Source of the DNA: an uncultured Bacteroidota bacterium
Lineage (GTDB): Bacteria; Bacteroidota; Bacteroidia; Chitinophagales; Chitinophagaceae
DNA: 64,000 bases
NCBI GenBank assembly: GCA_903835005.1
Contig: CAILLK010000073.1
Span: 62,001 to 126,000 of the forward strand
Direction: 5' to 3'
Under the pieces are notes generated by a model. That model was given only the letters and a program-made list of their open reading frames with translations. It was not told where the DNA came from and did not search any database. Shown piece after piece: positions 4,858 through 50,648 of the stretch; position 1 is the stretch's first letter; each line of letters begins with the position of its first letter. Both the position numbers and the translations under genes were made by a program.

Positions 4858-5490
4858 TTATTTTTTAGCCGTTCTCAGTATGCCTTGCTGGCAATTGAGT
4901 ATAAAGCCGGTTGACCAGGAAGTAAAATTATCTTTAACCCCGCCTTCAACAAAATAACTGATACTTAATGGTCCCTGAATATCCCATGAGTGCTCCAGCC
5001 CAATGCCGGCGTATGGAAGCGCTCCGCTGGGATATTCTGTAAATACAGCATAAACATCCCATTTTTTAGCCTGTTTTCCCCCCTCCCCGTTATTACCGAT
5101 CCTGAATTTATAACCCAGCCACTGGCCTACCGTATTGTCATTGAATGTGTAAAGGAAATAACCGTAAAAATTATCGTTTTCATATCCTGCATATAGCGAG
5201 AGAATATTGAATAGCTGCCAGGGGTTTTGAGTTGATATTGCGTTTTTATCAGTCTGGGCATAGTTCCAGTTACTGAACCCGAGGTTGAAATTGCCGTTGT
5301 TTTTTTTCAGCAAGTCACCTATGCAGCTGCAGCAACATTTGTTCCCATTGCAACTGTTCCCTTCACTATTGTTAGCTGTATATCCGGAAGATGAATAGGG
5401 TTGATTCATTGATTGAGACCAAAGACATGAAGTCCAGCAAAGAATACCAATTAATGTTATCAGATTTTTTATTGCAATGAATTTTCTCAT
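4858..5490 (-). CDS. Hypothetical exported protein with a cysteine cluster
   Basis: A 210-residue protein that I do not recognise. I place the start at the ATG at 5490, which begins an export signal (MRKFIAIKNLITLIGILCW); the frame extends to 5541 but those residues look untranslated. Soon after the signal there is a dense cysteine cluster, C-N-G-N-K-C-C-C-S-C. The rest is rich in aromatic residues and Gly (GYENDNFYGYFLYTFND, YAGIGLEHSWDI, SYFVEGGV), consistent with antiparallel beta strands and perhaps a small outer-membrane barrel. Whether the signal is type I or a lipoprotein signal is unclear, because a Cys lies near the cleavage region. It stands alone between convergent and divergent neighbours. 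Confidence 0.6.
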   Translation of the reverse strand: MRKFIAIKNLITLIGILCWTSCLWSQSMNQPYSSSGYTANNSEGNSCNGNKCCCSCIGDLLKKNNGNFNLGFSNWNYAQTDKNAISTQNPWQLFNILSLYAGYENDNFYGYFLYTFNDNTVGQWLGYKFRIGNNGEGGKQAKKWDVYAVFTEYPSGALPYAGIGLEHSWDIQGPLSISYFVEGGVKDNFTSWSTGFILNCQQGILRTAKK

Positions 5491-42087: not shown

Positions 42088-42873
42088 TTAACATTGAGGT
42101 TCCAGCACAATTGAAATTTCTCCCTCACCAATGTATTGGGTTTTTCCGGTGAGCGGGCTAGCTGAGACATTCAGCAGTTCAGCACGCTGCTCATCGCGGC
42201 CACCTATGAGCCAAAGGCCGGCATTGTGCCAAGGAGCTTTATCACCACCCCAGCGATTTTCAACTGAGTAAGTGTTGCCCATAATATAGGTGCACTTTAC
42301 GGCAATAGGGCCTTCGTGCTGGTAAACCATGCTGCCGGTAAAAGTTTTTCCCTTATCACTTGATTTAATATCGAGCGACTCTACAGCCTGTGTGGAACGG
42401 GAGCTTACAACCATAACGCCGCCATCATGCCATGGCTCGTTTACACCACCCCAGCGGGCAATTGTCCTGTTGCTATCCTGCAGGCCAGCTTTACCTAAGA
42501 ATGCTATAGGGCCTTCACCTTTATAAGTGCAAGTACCAGATAATATCTTGCCACCATCGGTGGATTTAACATTCAGCGCAATACATGGCTGGCCAACACG
42601 CTGACCGATAACCCATGATCCACCTTTATGACCATCTGTGCCGCCCCATGAATACTCAACCTGATAACTGAATCCAATAATGTGCTGAGCCTTAAAGCCA
42701 ATCTGACCTTCGCCTGCATAGGTGACGTGTCCTTCGAATGATTTACCATCGTTTTTTGATGTAATATCAATTTCAATGATTCCCTGGCCGCAACGGTCGC
42801 CTAATACCCAAAGGCCGCCTGGATGAAATGGCTTGTCTTCCCCGCCCCAACGATTTTCAACTGAATAGTTCAT
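42088..42873 (-). CDS. OAA-family high-mannose lectin, four repeats
   Basis: A 261-residue protein made of four tandem ~65-residue repeats of the Oscillatoria agardhii agglutinin (OAA)/MBHA/BOA family. Each repeat has WGG (9-11, 76-78, 141-143, 208-210), then an R in a G-x-R or S-S-R turn (27, 92, 159, 226), and an EG-x-I/EGPI turn (Glu 55, 120, 187, 250). These are the positions that form the oligomannose pocket in OAA. Four repeats make it most like the Burkholderia agglutinin BOA or the Myxococcus haemagglutinin. There is no signal peptide, as in the known members, so it is cytoplasmic unless released. Biological role unknown; it stands alone. Confidence 0.88.
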   Translation of the reverse strand: MNYSVENRWGGEDKPFHPGGLWVLGDRCGQGIIEIDITSKNDGKSFEGHVTYAGEGQIGFKAQHIIGFSYQVEYSWGGTDGHKGGSWVIGQRVGQPCIALNVKSTDGGKILSGTCTYKGEGPIAFLGKAGLQDSNRTIARWGGVNEPWHDGGVMVVSSRSTQAVESLDIKSSDKGKTFTGSMVYQHEGPIAVKCTYIMGNTYSVENRWGGDKAPWHNAGLWLIGGRDEQRAELLNVSASPLTGKTQYIGEGEISIVLEPQC

Positions 42874-43326
42874 AAAATAAATTTGTTTGAATTAAGTTCT
42901 CCTACTCTTTTTAAGGCTTTTCGGATTCCCCCTCCCGCTTTGAGCGCCTGTGCGGGGCAGGCCCTGTTTTTTTGAGTGGTTTTGCTGGTCTCCACTGTTT
43001 GCGCAAACTTCTTATAACGATGGGCCTTTTGCCCAGGTTGATCTTTTTTGGATTTATTCCTGCTTTATTTTTTCCATCGGATGGTAATATCATAAACTTA
43101 AGAATACCACCTCTGTATTACGCCCTTACAGGGCTTTGTCAAATTATTATACTATCGAGGGGCTTCACCCCTCGCTGTTGTATTGTTCCCCTTCAGGGCT
43201 ATCAAAGAACCAGAGTTAATGGCATTGGTTCCGGGGTAATTTTCTTTTTTCCCTTTTCGCTGATGCAAACATACTATAGCCGGCAGGGCAGGAAAAGCAT
43301 AAAGTAGCCAACGGCTGGAATGAGGC
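42874..43326. other. Intergenic region with short hairpins
   Basis: No supported gene. A stem CGAGGGG / CCCCTCG (43156-43174, loop CTTCA) lies among TTACAGGGCT- and CCTTCAGGGCT-like words, the look of small dispersed intergenic palindromes. A G-rich, low-complexity GGCGGGAATG stretch leads into the first LytTR-like repeat pair. Confidence 0.45.
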
Positions 43327-43356
43327 GGGAATGGCGGAATTGGGGTAGTGAACGGC
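43327..43356 (-). promoter_or_regulatory. Reverse-oriented LytTR-like repeat pair
   Basis: GGGAATGGC (43327-43335) and GTGAACGGC (43348-43356) are 21 bases apart. On the minus strand they read GCCGTTCAC and GCCATTCCC, the same 9-mer and period as the pair upstream of the second paralogue. Confidence 0.4.
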
Positions 43357-43460
43357 GGGAATGATAAAGAGAATTAAAGCTCTGAATCCTGTTATTGCCT
43401 ATTTATCAGGCTTTTGTAAAAACAAATATGTTATTTTGAATCCGGGATTCAAGGCGATTT

Positions 43461-43490
43461 ACCATTTACGGAATCATTTCCGCCGCTTGT
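43461..43490 (+). promoter_or_regulatory. LytTR-like direct repeats upstream of the first paralogue
   Basis: ACCATTTAC (43461-43469) and GCCGCTTGT (43482-43490) lie 21 bases apart with a 12-base spacer. They occupy the same place relative to the -7 box (62 bases) as the perfect pair at 44980-45009, but the words are more diverged. Confidence 0.45.
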
Positions 43491-43543
43491 TCGCCGGTGC
43501 TGCACTTGACTACTTTATGCTTTTTATGGGTTCACCGGCAATG

Positions 43544-43551
43544 TAGGTTTG
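43544..43551 (+). promoter_or_regulatory. -7 box (TAGGTTTG) of the first paralogue
   Basis: Matches TAnnTTTG, 20 bases before the ATG. The preceding ~40 bases (TACTTTATGCTTTTTATGGG) are conserved upstream of the second paralogue. Confidence 0.6.
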
Positions 43552-43571
43552 CAGCATAAAAACAAACAGCA

Positions 43572-43988
43572 ATGAAATCACTCAGCATTATTTTCCTGGC
43601 TATTGCAGCCAGCTTTTCACAGGTAAAAGGACAGCAGGCATTTAAAAATGCAGCAATAGCGAGGGTTAACAATCATTACCGCATTACTTACTCGGTGCCT
43701 TCGGAGGCAAATATCTATCAATATCGCATAGAGGCGGGCAATGATACTACTGATATGGAGGTAACAGGTGTTGTAAAGCCTGCAGGCAACAGTGTAACCG
43801 AGCGCAGCTACAGTTATGATGTTTATGAGGGTGCCTACAGGTATTACAGGGTAGCTGCAATAAGCATGGGCAGCAAGCTGAAATACTCTGATATACTCAG
43901 TATACCTGCTGCAGAGCCCAAACAGACACCTGAAAATGAGCAGGCCAAGCCAGTGGAAACGAATATACTTGCCAGCGGAAACCGGTAA
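43572..43988 (+). CDS. Small secreted protein, paralogue A flanking a LytTR regulator
   Basis: A 138-residue secreted protein with signal peptide (MKSLSIIFLAIAASFSQVKG, cleavage after KGQ). The mature part is beta-rich with an FnIII-like feel: NIYQYRIEAGNDTTDMEVTG, then a late YRYYRVAAISMGS strand. The tail is Pro/Glu/Lys-rich and unstructured (AAEPKQTPENEQAKPVE). It is a close paralogue of the gene at 45091 (shared QQAFKNAAI, NIYQYRIEAGND, YYRVAA). No family is known to me. The LytTR regulator follows 102 bases downstream on the same strand. Probably surface or periplasmic. Confidence 0.8.
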   Translation: MKSLSIIFLAIAASFSQVKGQQAFKNAAIARVNNHYRITYSVPSEANIYQYRIEAGNDTTDMEVTGVVKPAGNSVTERSYSYDVYEGAYRYYRVAAISMGSKLKYSDILSIPAAEPKQTPENEQAKPVETNILASGNR

Positions 43989-44090
43989 AAACTTTCCTAT
44001 TCGGCGATAAATGTATATGAATAAATTATTCACTAAACCCTAACTTAAACCTGTTATCACCCGTTGCTGAAAAGAAATTATCTTTAGGCG

Positions 44091-44849
44091 ATGGAAACCA
44101 AGCATATAAGCGCTATTATAGTAGATGATGATGAGTTTTGCTGCTTTCAGTTGCAGGACCTGATAAAAAAGTACTCGCTTGGAATAAACGTCGTGGCAGT
44201 TTGCTTTTCGGGTGCAGAAGGGCTGGTGAAAATAGCAGAACTGAAGCCGGACCTAATATTCCTTGATGTGGAGATGCCGGGAATGAACGGGTTTGAGATG
44301 ATCAGGAAACTGCCTGCGGGCAACTTTGAGATTATATTTACTACCAGCCACGACCATTATGCCATCAGGGCCATACGCTTCTCGGCACTTGATTACCTGG
44401 TGAAACCCATTGACCCTAATGTGCTGCAAGAGGCCATAAGCCGCCTGAAGGATAAGCTGCAGACCAAAACCACCGAGGAACCCCGCCCACTGGAAATAAT
44501 GGGCATACCCGCCGAGAAAAAGCTGAACAACCTGGCAGTGCCCACCATGGAGGGCCTGCTTTTTGTGGGCCTGCAGGATATAGTGCGCTGCGAAAGTGAT
44601 GATAAATACACCAAAATATATACAGCCGATAAGAAAATGATTATGGCCAGCCGAACCATGGGCGAATTTGAAACCATACTGGAGCCACATGGCTTCTTCA
44701 GGATTCACAAATCGTACCTTATAAACCTGAAGCACCTGAAGAAATACCTGCGCGGCGATGGTGGCCAAGTGGTGATGACCGATGGCTCGACACTGGATGT
44801 GAGCAGGAGGAAGAAGGATGAGCTGATGGCGCTGGTGGGGCAGTTTTAA
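44091..44849 (+). CDS. LytTR family response regulator
   Basis: A 252-residue regulator. The receiver domain (1-~125) has the acidic pocket VDDDE (12-15), the phosphoacceptor Asp59 in LIFLDVEMPGMNGFEM, and the conserved Lys in DYLVKPI. A linker leads to a LytTR DNA-binding domain (~150-250; MEGLLFVGLQDIVRCESDDKY ... FFRIHKSYLINLKHLKKY). LytTR proteins bind pairs of 9-bp direct repeats with 12-13 bp spacing; such pairs occur upstream of both flanking paralogues. No LytS-type kinase is adjacent; the hybrid kinase at 47216 is the nearest. It probably controls the flanking secreted proteins. Confidence 0.92.
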   Translation: METKHISAIIVDDDEFCCFQLQDLIKKYSLGINVVAVCFSGAEGLVKIAELKPDLIFLDVEMPGMNGFEMIRKLPAGNFEIIFTTSHDHYAIRAIRFSALDYLVKPIDPNVLQEAISRLKDKLQTKTTEEPRPLEIMGIPAEKKLNNLAVPTMEGLLFVGLQDIVRCESDDKYTKIYTADKKMIMASRTMGEFETILEPHGFFRIHKSYLINLKHLKKYLRGDGGQVVMTDGSTLDVSRRKKDELMALVGQF

Positions 44850-44979
44850 GGGGCATAAAATATCTACCTGTCATATTTATAAGGCCATCAAGGATTATTT
44901 TCAGATAAATTATTTGTTCTTCCGGATTCAAAATACGGAATAAAAGGTTTCTGATTCTGTTTCTCCCAGATTTTCTGCC

Positions 44980-45009
44980 GCCGTTCACGGAATCATTTTC
45001 GCCGTTCAC
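44980..45009 (+). promoter_or_regulatory. Perfect LytTR-type direct repeats GCCGTTCAC-N12-GCCGTTCAC
   Basis: Two identical 9-mers (44980-44988 and 45001-45009) with a 12-base spacer, period 21. They fit seven of nine positions of the published LytTR consensus [TA][AC][CA]GTTN[AG][TG]. They lie 53 bases before the -7 box and 82 bases upstream of the ATG of paralogue B. Confidence 0.65.
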
Positions 45010-45062
45010 TCCTCAAAATTGCCATAGGCTACTTTGTGCTTTTTATGGGCTTCCGGGCATGG

Positions 45063-45070
45063 TACGTTTG
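45063..45070 (+). promoter_or_regulatory. -7 box (TACGTTTG) of paralogue B
   Basis: Matches TAnnTTTG, 20 bases before the ATG at 45091, the same distance as for paralogue A. TACTTTGTGCTTTTTATGGG upstream is shared with paralogue A. Confidence 0.6.
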
Positions 45071-45090
45071 TATCTCAAAAACGGAAACTA

Positions 45091-45504
45091 ATGAAATCGC
45101 TTAGCATCATTATCCTGGCCATAGCAGCCAGCTACACACAGGCAAACGGACAGCAGGCATTTAAAAATGCAGCCATACAGCAAACAGAGAACCACTATGT
45201 GTTGAGCTTCTCGGTACCCTCTGAAACTAATATATACCAGTACCGCATAGAGGCAGGCAACGACAGCACCCAAATGGAAGTAACTGGCGTGTTAAAGCCC
45301 AAGGGCAACAGCGTAATGGAGCGCTGCTACCGGTATGAGACATTTGATACCGGCTATAAATATTACCGGGTAGCGGCAGTGGGCATGGGCAGCCAGCTCA
45401 CGTACTCAGCTATGCTTAGCCGCCCCCTAGTGGATACGAAGCAGGAGCAAATGCCGAGTGCGCCAAAGCATTGCGAGACTAACGCGGTGGCAAGGGGGAA
45501 TTAA
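45091..45504 (+). CDS. Small secreted protein, paralogue B flanking a LytTR regulator
   Basis: A 137-residue protein, begun at the ATG at 45091 (MKSLSIIILAIAASYTQANG) because this copies the start of paralogue A; the longer frame to 45034 is not conserved. The signal peptide is cleaved near ANGQ. The mature part keeps NIYQYRIEAGNDSTQMEVTG and YKYYRVAAVGMGS and has a more degenerate tail. It differs from A in extra cysteines (MERCYRY, KHCETNA). It follows the LytTR gene by 241 bases and has its own promoter and perfect operator-like repeats. Function unknown. Confidence 0.82.
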   Translation: MKSLSIIILAIAASYTQANGQQAFKNAAIQQTENHYVLSFSVPSETNIYQYRIEAGNDSTQMEVTGVLKPKGNSVMERCYRYETFDTGYKYYRVAAVGMGSQLTYSAMLSRPLVDTKQEQMPSAPKHCETNAVARGN

Positions 45505-47215: not shown

Positions 47216-50215
47216 GTGAATTTACTAAAATTTAATTGCTGTGTTCTCAGCTTTATAATAATTGCTACTTTGCCATATAGTTCATCTGCTCAAAAAGATG
47301 ATAATGAAATTGACACCTTAAAAAGGGCATTAAGGATAGCGACAGGAGATGAGCAACGAATTAAACTCTTATTGGAGTTATCAATAAACATCAATTGCAA
47401 GGATAGCCTACAAAAAATGGCATATGCAGCGCAGGCATTGGATATTGCTACTAAAAACAACACTTTTCAGGGCATAATTAATTCATCTGTTGTATTAGGT
47501 GATGTATTTAAGTATTGTTATCGCAATAAAGAAAGAGCCTTCGAAAATTATATGAATAGTGCTGAGGTCGCAAAAAAAATCCACGATACATTAAATGAAG
47601 TAGAGGCGTATAACCATATTGGGCTATTATACAAGGAAGGCACCGATTATATAAAGGCAATTCAATTTTTTAATCTTGCGCTTTCTTTGAATCCTGCTAA
47701 AGATGTTGCCAGCAGCTTATTTTGCAATATGGGCGTAATCTATAGTGAGGTTTCTGATTATACGAAAGCTATGGATTGTTTTGAGAAAGCTTATGATATA
47801 CAAAACAGGGCTATTAAAACGAAAAAGAACCCTAAAATTCAAGATTCATTAATGATTTCCGGATTGCATTTGGGTTTGGGCGATCTTTACAGAGCCATGC
47901 ATAATTACAGCAAGGCAATTGATCAATATGAACTTGCTTTAAAAATGGCATGTGGCATAGAAATTATGGAACTGCGTGCCTTAACAGGCAAAGGTAATAC
48001 CTTTTACGAAGAAGGAAATTATGGGATTGCCACAAAGCAATATTTGACAGCATTATCTCTTAACAAACAACCACAAGCGCAAACTATTGTTCTTTTTCAA
48101 AAGCTTGCAAGTAGTTATCTTAAACAAGGATCATTAACTCAATCTCTTGTATACGCTGAAAAAGCACTTTCTACTGGAACAGAGCAGAAAGCGGAACCTC
48201 TGCTGACAGTGACATATATAATATTGGCAAAAATAAAGGTACAATTGAAACAAAATAATGTAGCAATAGATTACCTTAGAAAAGCTATTGCCAAAGCAAG
48301 AACCATGCACCTCGCCCAAGAAGAAGAAGATGCATGGCAGGAACTAAATAATATATATGAACAAACAAAGAATAAGTCGGAGGCCTACGATGCCTTTAAA
48401 CATTATATAACCCTTCGCGATTCGATATATAGTAAAAATAAAGAAAATGAATTTATTAAGTTAGACCTCAATGCTGGCTTTGCTCGTAAAGAATATTCTG
48501 ACAGCATTTCCCACGCAAAAGACCTTGCCATAAAAGAAAGCGAAAACAGGCGCCAAAAAGCATTTACCTATGGTGGCTTCACCGGCCTCGCCCTTGTAAT
48601 ACTCCTCGCCTTCTTCATCTTCCGAAACTACAGCCAGCAAAAGAAAGCCAATGTGGTTATACAGGCCGAGAAGGAAAATGCGGAGCAGCAACGGCAGCGG
48701 GCAGAGCGAAGTGAGGCGTTTAAGCAGCAGTTTCTGGCCAATATGAGCCATGAAATACGCACACCTATGAATGCCGTAATGGGTATGACCAGCCTGGCAC
48801 TGGATACGGGTATGCCGGAAAAGCAGAAAATGTATCTGGAGGGGATCAAGAAATCATCAGATAATCTGCTGCATATAATTAATGATATCCTCGACCTCAG
48901 CAAGATAGAAGCGGGCAAGATGGAGCTGGAAGAAATCGACTTTTCGCTGGCTGCAACGGTGGACCATGTGAAGCAGGTGCTAAGCTACCGGGCCGAGGAG
49001 AAGGGGCTGCAACTGATCACCTACATAGACCCGGCGTTGCCCGATGTGGTGACAGGCGACCCGGTGAGGCTGGGGCAGGCGCTGCTGAACCTGGCAGGCA
49101 ATGGTATAAAATTTACGGAACAGGGCAGCGTGAGTATAAAAGTGAAGAAGGTGGCTGAAGGGGTGCGGTTTTCGGTAACCGATACGGGCATAGGGATACC
49201 GAAGGATAAACTGGAACTGGTGTTTGAAAAGTTCTCACAGGCCAATAGCAGCGATACCCGCAAGTATGGCGGCACAGGGCTGGGGCTAAGCATCAGTCAG
49301 CAACTGGTGGAGCTGATGGGCGGGCATATACATATAGAAAGTGAGGAGGGATCGGGTACCACTTTTTCGTTTATCCTGAACCTGCCTCATGGTTCGGCAG
49401 AAAGACTGAAACAGCGGTTGGCAGCAGAGGAAGATGTGGATGGCAGTGCACTGGATGGCCTGAGCATACTGGTAGTGGATGATAATGAGTATAACCGCAT
49501 AGTGGCTCGGGACACGCTGGAAGCAAAGGCAAAGGTAAAAATTGATGCCGTGGGCAGCGCTAAAGAAGGCCTGGCGCTGCTGCAGCAAAAACACTTTGAT
49601 ATGGTGCTGATGGATGTGCAGATGCCCGTAATGAACGGCTTTGATGCCACCCGCCACATAAGGGAGCAAATGGAAGGGCCGGTAAAGGATATAGCGGTGA
49701 TAGCCCTTACCGCATCGGTGCTGCGCACGGACCTGGATAAATGCAAGGCCGCGGGGATGAACGCTTATGTATCGAAGCCTTTTAAGGCCAGCCAGCTTAT
49801 AGGTGCGATAGCTGAGGTATTGGGGTTGAGTGGCGGAGCTAAAAAGCCTGTGCCAGCTATAGTAAAGGAAGTAGTTGCAGGTGGAATAACCGACCTCACT
49901 TACCTGACCAACTACTGTGAAGGTGATAAGGAGCGGATAGCGGGCTACATAAACATGTACCTGAAGGCAGCGGCGGGATTTGAAGAAAAAGCCAGGGCTG
50001 CCATTGCCTCACCTGACCCTGAAGATGCTGCTGCACTGGCCCATGCCTTTAAACCCAAGTGGACGATGATGGGCATGGCCCTGTGCGTGGATCTGGGTCA
50101 GAAGGTGGAGTTTATGAGCAAGGAGGCAGGTAATGAGGAGCATATTAAAAATGCATTGTTAAGACTTACAGAATACAACCGGCAATCGGTGATGGAACTG
50201 GAAAGTTTTGTTTAG
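47216..50215 (+). CDS. Hybrid TPR sensor histidine kinase with receiver and HPt domains
   Basis: A 999-residue protein starting with GTG at 47216 and a signal peptide (NLLKFNCCVLSFIIIATLPY). A periplasmic TPR region fills ~30-420, a membrane helix lies near 448-468, then a coiled coil and the HisKA box FLANMSHEIRTPMNAVMG (His511). The ATPase domain follows (NGIKFTEQGS; DTGIGIP; GGTGLGLSISQQLV). A receiver domain has SILVVDDNEYNR (~750) and phospho-Asp in MVLMDVQMPVMNG (~799). The final HPt domain carries AHAFKPKWTMMG (His ~942), so a complete phosphorelay sits in one chain. The sensed signal is unknown. It is followed by a single-domain regulator, probably its partner. Confidence 0.92.
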   Translation: MNLLKFNCCVLSFIIIATLPYSSSAQKDDNEIDTLKRALRIATGDEQRIKLLLELSININCKDSLQKMAYAAQALDIATKNNTFQGIINSSVVLGDVFKYCYRNKERAFENYMNSAEVAKKIHDTLNEVEAYNHIGLLYKEGTDYIKAIQFFNLALSLNPAKDVASSLFCNMGVIYSEVSDYTKAMDCFEKAYDIQNRAIKTKKNPKIQDSLMISGLHLGLGDLYRAMHNYSKAIDQYELALKMACGIEIMELRALTGKGNTFYEEGNYGIATKQYLTALSLNKQPQAQTIVLFQKLASSYLKQGSLTQSLVYAEKALSTGTEQKAEPLLTVTYIILAKIKVQLKQNNVAIDYLRKAIAKARTMHLAQEEEDAWQELNNIYEQTKNKSEAYDAFKHYITLRDSIYSKNKENEFIKLDLNAGFARKEYSDSISHAKDLAIKESENRRQKAFTYGGFTGLALVILLAFFIFRNYSQQKKANVVIQAEKENAEQQRQRAERSEAFKQQFLANMSHEIRTPMNAVMGMTSLALDTGMPEKQKMYLEGIKKSSDNLLHIINDILDLSKIEAGKMELEEIDFSLAATVDHVKQVLSYRAEEKGLQLITYIDPALPDVVTGDPVRLGQALLNLAGNGIKFTEQGSVSIKVKKVAEGVRFSVTDTGIGIPKDKLELVFEKFSQANSSDTRKYGGTGLGLSISQQLVELMGGHIHIESEEGSGTTFSFILNLPHGSAERLKQRLAAEEDVDGSALDGLSILVVDDNEYNRIVARDTLEAKAKVKIDAVGSAKEGLALLQQKHFDMVLMDVQMPVMNGFDATRHIREQMEGPVKDIAVIALTASVLRTDLDKCKAAGMNAYVSKPFKASQLIGAIAEVLGLSGGAKKPVPAIVKEVVAGGITDLTYLTNYCEGDKERIAGYINMYLKAAAGFEEKARAAIASPDPEDAAALAHAFKPKWTMMGMALCVDLGQKVEFMSKEAGNEEHIKNALLRLTEYNRQSVMELESFV

Positions 50216-50267: not shown

Positions 50268-50648
50268 ATGCACACCAAGCTGATTAAAAAGATATTTGTT
50301 GTAGATGATGATAAACTGAGCGCATGCCTGCTTAAGGACCAGCTTACCAGTAAATTTCCGCATGATGTACACCTGTTTGACAACGGAGAAGATTGCCTGA
50401 AGCACCTTGCGGAGCAGCCGGACATTGTAATACTTGATTTTAATCTCAACTCGGAATTTAAAGATGCGGCCAATGGGCTGCGGATACTGGAAGCTATAAA
50501 GAAAACAGACTTCGGGATAAGGGTTATTATGCTATCGGGCCAGGATGACTATGGCACAGCGCTGATAAGTATTACCAAGGGCGCGGAGGAATATGTGCTG
50601 AAAAGCAAGGAAGCATTTGAGGAGATTGAGGCTCTTTGTAATCAGTAA
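50268..50648 (+). CDS. Single-domain CheY-like response regulator
   Basis: A 126-residue receiver domain with no output domain. The acidic pair is in FVVDDDKLSA (13-15), the phospho-Asp in DIVILDFNLNSEF (near 61), and the Thr/Ser-Lys positions follow (VIMLSGQDD; EYVLKSKEAF). It lies 52 bases after the hybrid kinase, whose HPt domain can pass phosphate to such a protein. It may act by protein-protein interaction or as a phosphate sink. A terminator follows. Confidence 0.92.
   Translation: MHTKLIKKIFVVDDDKLSACLLKDQLTSKFPHDVHLFDNGEDCLKHLAEQPDIVILDFNLNSEFKDAANGLRILEAIKKTDFGIRVIMLSGQDDYGTALISITKGAEEYVLKSKEAFEEIEALCNQ

Follow-up and report, generated by a model that had tools for sequence, protein, structure and literature searches.

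Operators made of short direct repeats have been described for several LytTR-type regulators. CoxC and RcoM1, both sensor-LytTR fusions, bind three LytTR-type direct repeats of 8 bp (TTNNNGCN for CoxC, TTCNNGCA for RcoM1), with spacers of 12–13 bp in the case of RcoM1 (PMC11347149). In the operators of LytTR response regulators such as SilA and AgrA, two direct repeats of 9–10 bp, separated by 11–12 bp, precede the promoter (PMC2766830), and in LytTR Regulatory Systems (LRS) the repeats are mostly 12 bp apart (a minority 11 or 13), with a strong bias toward a position 10 bp upstream of the -35 box, autoregulation, and a membrane inhibitor as partner (PMC6193735). Here we analyze a stretch of 64,000 nucleotides (the window) on contig CAILLK010000073.1 of an uncultured Chitinophagaceae bacterium, whose 5.9 Mb genome assembly consists of 163 contigs. 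The window encodes a REC-LytTR response regulator between the genes of two small secreted proteins, A and B. The most probable reading, at roughly three in four, is that this regulator serves as the activator of a small regulon and acts at a predicted tripartite operator placed ahead of a Bacteroidota-type promoter.

How does this locus compare with the described systems? As for CoxC and RcoM1, there are three repeats, but these are 9-mers of other sequence, separated by N12 and N11 spacers; the adjoining regulator is a REC-LytTR response regulator, and several unrelated targets are found. SilA/AgrA differ in repeat number (two rather than three), in their targets and in phylum. With LRS, the locus shares a LytTR regulator, a possible autoregulation and a placement of the repeats 10 bp upstream, the third one here ending 10 bp before a -33 element. 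To our knowledge, LRS regulators have no receiver domain; unlike them, the present regulator contains one and a hybrid kinase is encoded nearby, so that the locus does not classify as an LRS. Since three-repeat operators are known from CoxC and RcoM1, the operator described below is a variant rather than a new kind. Searches of the open-access literature by title and abstract returned no work on LytTR regulators and lectins at such promoters in Bacteroidetes and nothing on LytTR in Chitinophaga, and our literature searches did not retrieve the combination of a REC-LytTR regulator, such an operator, OAA-family lectin or lipase targets and DUF805b leaders.

A predicted three-repeat operator

The architecture of this predicted operator, its near-fixed geometry, the six copies found in the genome and its conservation together with the regulator in related genomes can be read from the sequence. 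Both Pfam domains of the regulator exceed their curated cut-offs, which identifies it as a response regulator of the LytTR (AlgR/AgrA/LytR) kind. A preliminary description of this DNA had placed it between two paralogous genes, and re-reading of the sequence bears out the paralogy, the coordinates and the order A-regulator-B (Table 1; promoters and signal peptides were assigned by eye). The same description had noted two identical 9-mers before B (44980-45009), a diverged pair before A (43461-43490) and an equal distance from pair to -7 box, all of which we recover, with 53 bases between pair and box at both genes. A reverse pair (43327-43356) is likewise present; it forms R1 and R2 of a third, complete predicted promoter, which faces left. 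The predicted operator is more than a pair, since each of the three promoters carries a third 9-mer, R3.

Comparison of A, B, the reverse-strand site and the loci of relatives yields the layout R1-N12-R2-N11-R3-TAC-N7-TTTT-N19-TAnnTTTG, the last part of which (TTTT-N19-TAnnTTTG) we take to be the Bacteroidota -33/-7 promoter. The repeats follow the consensus ACCGTTCAC (R1), GCACTTCAC (R2) and GCCGTTGGC (R3), their starts are 21 and 20 bp apart, and the three 9-mers are predicted to lie on one face of the helix. Among 23 strong matches in the genus, R1 is 83 bases from the -7 box in 20 operators, 82 in two and 84 in one. In an information profile of 22 distinct operators (L092, whose spacer 2 is a base longer, was left out of the profile only), R1, R2 and R3 average 1.14, 1.16 and 1.23 bits, spacers 1 and 2 0.85 and 0.59, the 10 bases after R3 1.09, the TTTT element 1.79 and the -7 box 1.29. 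Repeats for the predicted LytTR binding are present, conserved and positioned as expected upstream of the promoter.

Could this similarity instead come mostly from recently duplicated cassettes, of promoter and gene or of promoter and leader, and so reflect descent rather than a bound operator? We hold this to be very improbable: although A and B are paralogues with alignable upstream DNA, and a lectin gene and two genes on contig C117 have promoter and leader in common, the 30 bases upstream (0.12 bits) and the 19-base spacer between the -33 and -7 elements (0.26 bits) are unconserved where the three repeats are conserved. Moreover, the 13 targets outside the A/B group give a similar profile on their own (the group of nine includes L104, whose A-family gene is the second open reading frame), and among the targets of the various genomes are proteins that bear no relation to one another.

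The position of the repeats also bears on the sign of regulation. By analogy to CoxC, a repressor with a three-repeat operator (PMC11347149), the regulator might repress its target promoters; yet the CoxC repeats overlap the -35 box, whereas here R3 stays 10 bp clear of the -33 element, which is the position seen at LytTR-activated promoters (PMC6193735) and makes repression quite unlikely.

The window contains three copies of the repeat as first described, GCCGTTCAC, where 0.28 would be expected, a count attained in two of 100 shuffled versions, and the exact pair GCCGTTCAC-N12-GCCGTTCAC is unique in the genome. With up to three mismatches, the pair gave five matches genome-wide versus 14 for a reversed-pattern control, and the loosened pair is therefore not significant on its own. 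As a regulon finder, the two-repeat scan was too weak, and a model of the full promoter was used in its place.

Operator copies and their association with the regulator

Two sequence-only profiles served for these searches: model R1, built from 13 operator sites including those adjoining the regulator in relatives, and model R2, which for that reason was restricted to the six operator sites of the source genome. By model R1 the latter holds at least six strong operators (E 1.4e-23 to 1.9e-15; next match 0.66), possibly a lower bound as the best 150 of 1963 first-look candidates were scored: those of B, of A and of the leftward promoter (43356-43266), two on C117 and one on C44. The two-target regulon of the preliminary description thus gives way to at least six operator-promoters, three of them in the window and four before genes unrelated to A and B. 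Repeat pairs away from the A/B family, which it had named as evidence against itself, do exist; they are, however, few and form a coherent promoter set, and so widen the regulon rather than remove it. What stands is a predicted LytTR-type direct-repeat operator that precedes both copies of a duplicated promoter-gene module next to the regulator and is also conserved where other genomes carry the regulator. The earlier interpretation is accordingly supported in part: it names the right kind of system and draws it too small.

Is the operator tied to this regulator? Homologues of 67–94% identity occur in seven other genomes of the genus, bringing to eight, out of 35 sampled, those with a close homologue (at least ~67% identity, E<1e-100). 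Scoring the best 117 candidates per genome, model R1 gave 23 strong matches (E<=1.1e-7) in nine genomes. Model R2 (best 114 per genome, E<=1e-4) matched in seven of the eight genomes with a close homologue and in one of the 27 without (Fisher 9e-6, or 3.5e-5 without the source genome, relatedness uncorrected), which makes 33 of 35 genomes concordant, seven having both and 26 neither. G208 (65% complete) is strong with model R1 only (1.1e-7, versus 0.0039 with model R2). An A-family gene with the operator in front lies directly 5' of the regulator in seven genomes, namely our own, G213, G221, G200, G216, G214 and G199; at the loci L037-L041 an A homologue adjoins the regulator, and in L037 B is present as well. 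Across 294 genomes of the family, at least three match at E<=1e-4 (the source genome, G079 and, partially, G188), perhaps a lower bound given strict filters and 14 candidates scored per genome.

Several points weigh against our reading. Spacer 1 is almost as conserved as the repeats, a degree of conservation beyond what LytTR half-sites alone would be expected to require; in B the TT core is missing from R3, and A has a poor R2. Genomes from one genus do not count as independent samples, and their kinship does not enter the Fisher figures. G205 has a 69% regulator homologue and no model match, and the model R2 matches in G214 and G199 are only partial (3.7e-5 and 8.4e-5). In the nearest relative, the kinase encoded near the regulator is 38% identical although the regulator is 94% identical, which weakens the kinase link. 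Finally, G218 (98% complete) carries two operators (E 7.1e-13 and 2.2e-11), its best LytTR match being only 34% identical, and the source genome encodes a second regulator relative (41% identity, on C48) as a potential binder.

The last two points, together with the weaker operators of G079 (another genus, searched for the operator only), would suit an operator bound by some other regulator encoded elsewhere in the genome, whether of the LytTR type or unrelated, the local one being a mere neighbor or target. We consider this unlikely in view of the 33 concordant genomes and of the seven in which the operator immediately precedes the A-family gene before the regulator, and we retain the adjoining REC-LytTR protein as the probable regulator of these promoters.

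In G205, whose regulator locus is without an A-family gene, a two-repeat site with matching promoter spacing (L042, 3738-3640, minus strand) lies divergent from the 69% homologue. This is possibly a reduced operator; no open reading frame of at least 60 amino acids (aa) is listed behind it.

Predicted members of the regulon

Which genes would respond? The leftward promoter faces the gene of an OAA-family lectin, which scores 170.4 bits to PF17882 against a cut-off of 20, as a tandem OAA-domain protein, and matches BOA (4gk9, E 1.9e-128) and MBHA (4fbr, E 1.1e-88) in the PDB. BOA and the myxobacterial hemagglutinin share with it the OAA family and four matched repeats; here, the gene lies under a predicted LytTR-type promoter. 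The operator on C44 leads to a class-3 lipase (PF01764, 1.8e-12), and those on C117 to genes of 86 and 490 aa with no Pfam match above cut-off and no NCBIfam match. A and B are the only two members of their family found in the genome (E<=1e-3); in Pfam and NCBIfam, A had no match and B nothing above cut-off, and the best PDB match of an A/B profile has E 0.26.

The nearest relative is G213, whose regulator is 94% identical; at least seven operators there precede A, B, a 119-aa gene family (two operators), a 227-aa protein, a 97-aa orphan and a class-3 lipase; the operator of the 97-aa orphan is located where the source genome has the lectin promoter. Further strong matches outside the A-family loci were found in G216:C659 and in G218:C73, where the gene that follows encodes a protein of ~331 aa in both cases, and in G218:C66, G200:C87 and G208:C97. 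G079 contains at least three weaker operators (E 2.2e-9 to 2.2e-6), one of them before an open reading frame that is lipase-like by eye. In G200:C87 (L104), a weaker operator (E 2.3e-9) precedes an open reading frame that appears by eye to encode a response regulator, followed by a second A-family gene.

Table 1. Positions in the window of the regulator locus, its predicted operators and promoters, and linked features
Feature	Position	Strand	Evidence or remark
OAA-family lectin (261 aa; by eye without signal peptide)	42088..42873	-	PF17882 E 9.6e-51, four stretches
DUF805b RNA (RF02914) in lectin leader	42899..42934	-	35.3 bits, E 6.0e-8; gathering score 35.6
Conserved lectin-gene leader, common to two C117 promoters and L037	42899..43049	-	alignment
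Leftward promoter (predicted): TTTT 43296-43293, TATGTTTG 43273-43266	43266..43296	-	
Leftward operator (predicted): R1 43356-43348, R2 43335-43327, R3 43315-43307	43307..43356	-	model R1, E 5.5e-22
A operator (predicted): R1 43461-43469, R2 43482-43490 (poor), R3 43502-43510	43461..43510	+	model R1, E 1.5e-17
A promoter (predicted): TTTT 43521-43524, TAGGTTTG 43544-43551	43521..43551	+	
A, small secreted protein, 138 aa	43572..43988	+	signal peptide by eye
REC-LytTR response regulator, 252 aa	44091..44849	+	Pfam Response_reg 2.8e-22, LytTR 4.1e-20
B operator (predicted): R1 44980-44988, R2 45001-45009, R3 45021-45029 (without TT core)	44980..45029	+	model R1, E 1.0e-20
B promoter (predicted): -33-like TTTT 45040-45043, -7 box TACGTTTG 45063-45070	45040..45070	+	almost the same spacing across 23 operators
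B, paralogue of A, 137 aa	45091..45504	+	63% identical to A
Candidate partner: TPR-HisKA-HATPase-REC hybrid kinase, HPt-like end by eye	47216..50215	+	Pfam
Receiver-only protein adjoining the kinase	50268..50648	+	homologue after kinase: 67% in L041, 64% in L046

DUF805b-type leaders of the distal targets

The lectin gene and the three other distal targets have a leader with a DUF805b-type RNA (RF02914). Leaders of this type are found at all nine targets outside A/B in the source genome and G213, four in the former and at five of the seven G213 targets in the latter. Outside the source genome, the assignment comes from Rfam for two L037 copies and otherwise from pattern or eye, one G213 copy behind an operator being an Rfam call. 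A window scan at the Rfam gathering threshold does not list the lectin-leader copy; the C117 copies are over the cut-off (40.6 and 38.6 bits) and that of C44 is below it (29.5). The DUF805b pattern was sought in the leaders of nine regulator-adjoining A-family promoters and five other targets and found in none. Alignment of 15 leaders from the source genome and G213 suggests a further upstream hairpin, with compensatory changes at three of seven predicted pairs, counted over both stems together. In the open-access literature we found nothing on DUF805b or DUF805 as an RNA or structured RNA.

The source genome contains at least 19 DUF805b matches at E<=1e-3, 11 of them over the cut-off, possibly a lower bound as the best 150 of 2723 first-look candidates were scored. 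That DUF805b RNAs always lie behind the operator is ruled out, only four of the 19 copies found doing so. Four of the 19 loci (L058, L070, L071 and L072, on C141, C120, C69 and C132) have an inverted TACCGTTnATCAACGGT-like repeat at most 200 bases upstream, which was found in none of the control stretches scanned and perhaps points to a second regulator of DUF805b genes. At L087 (C124:7000-17000) and L086 (C117:33000-41000), neighboring genes come in runs, each with a DUF805b leader of its own, and several look lectin-like by eye (jacalin-like, ricin-type, bulb-lectin-like).

Measured from its predicted promoter, the lectin leader is ~385 nt long. Compared with those of C117, it has ~150 additional bases (at 43050-43250, minus strand); L037, too, has a long leader. 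This extra stretch contains hairpins such as CGAGGGGTGAAGCCCCTCG, one of its 13-mers occurs once in the window, and to call it a repeat element is only a guess.

The regulator gene and a candidate kinase

How might the system be wired? A -7-like TATCTTTA lies just 5' of the regulator start, with similar sequence in relatives by eye, and suggests that the regulator gene may have a basal promoter of its own in addition to read-through from A. In the nearest relative (L037, 4821-5451), regulator and B are separated by a degenerate C-terminal regulator fragment (5319-5451) and, by eye, a toxin-antitoxin-like pair, perhaps a trace of the duplication that gave A and B.

The candidate signaling partner, a TPR-containing hybrid kinase, begins 2.4 kb beyond the regulator, whose direct neighbors are A and B. 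Related kinases are encoded near the regulator in L037 (38% identity over 537 aa), L039 (44%) and L041 (42%), L038 has a kinase fragment at the contig end, and in L046 a kinase precedes a partial regulator match (residues 16-128); in L040 and L042, no kinase match was found beyond receiver similarity. We propose that the linked kinase would phosphorylate the regulator, which, rather than another LytTR protein, would bind the three repeats and activate the promoters. Read-through from A would feed back on the regulator gene, while the leftward promoter would transcribe the lectin gene through its DUF805b-bearing leader; the other distal targets would be the class-3 lipase and the two orphan genes, each again with a DUF805b leader. 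More tentatively, and with clearly less than even confidence, this may amount to a two-layer module, wherein one LytTR regulator, via the three-repeat operator, would switch on dispersed genes of lectins, lipases and small orphan proteins, most of them lacking a signal peptide, and the transcripts would in addition contain the DUF805b RNA.

Relatives of A and B elsewhere

Relatives of B occur in 82 of 195 genomes of the wider family, mostly as parts of long proteins judging from open-frame length. Five short ones (L008-L012) show no operator copy by eye in the 320 bases upstream and were left out of the regulon. Four of their promoters (L008-L011) share a GTGTTTTCAC-like repeat followed by GTGYTAATAC, the distance between the two being 23 bp in all but one, which makes for another repeat system within one gene family. 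Three of the short relatives differ in regulator context: in G169, G171 and G050 (L170, L171 and L172), genomes without such an operator, a gene whose product is 31–37% identical to B is divergent from what by eye is a run of lipoprotein, membrane protein, sensor kinase and NarL-type regulator genes, the receiver similarity of these regulators to that of the window being 28–30%. The small secreted A/B family thus seems, from gene context, to be associated with more than one type of two-component genes.

Implications

What had been suspected to be a two-gene case can now be put to the test as a delimited, predicted regulon whose operator has an exact consensus, in a group of Bacteroidota represented here mainly by metagenome assemblies. 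On this evidence, a REC-LytTR response regulator would use a three-repeat operator, three repeats being otherwise described, in the accounts consulted, for sensor-LytTR fusions. The predicted regulon also connects the DUF805b leader, class-3 lipases and an OAA-family lectin with apparently one two-component signal in Bacteroidota. If true, this would provide a biological context for DUF805b RNAs and a dedicated signaling input for the OAA-type lectins of Bacteroidota.

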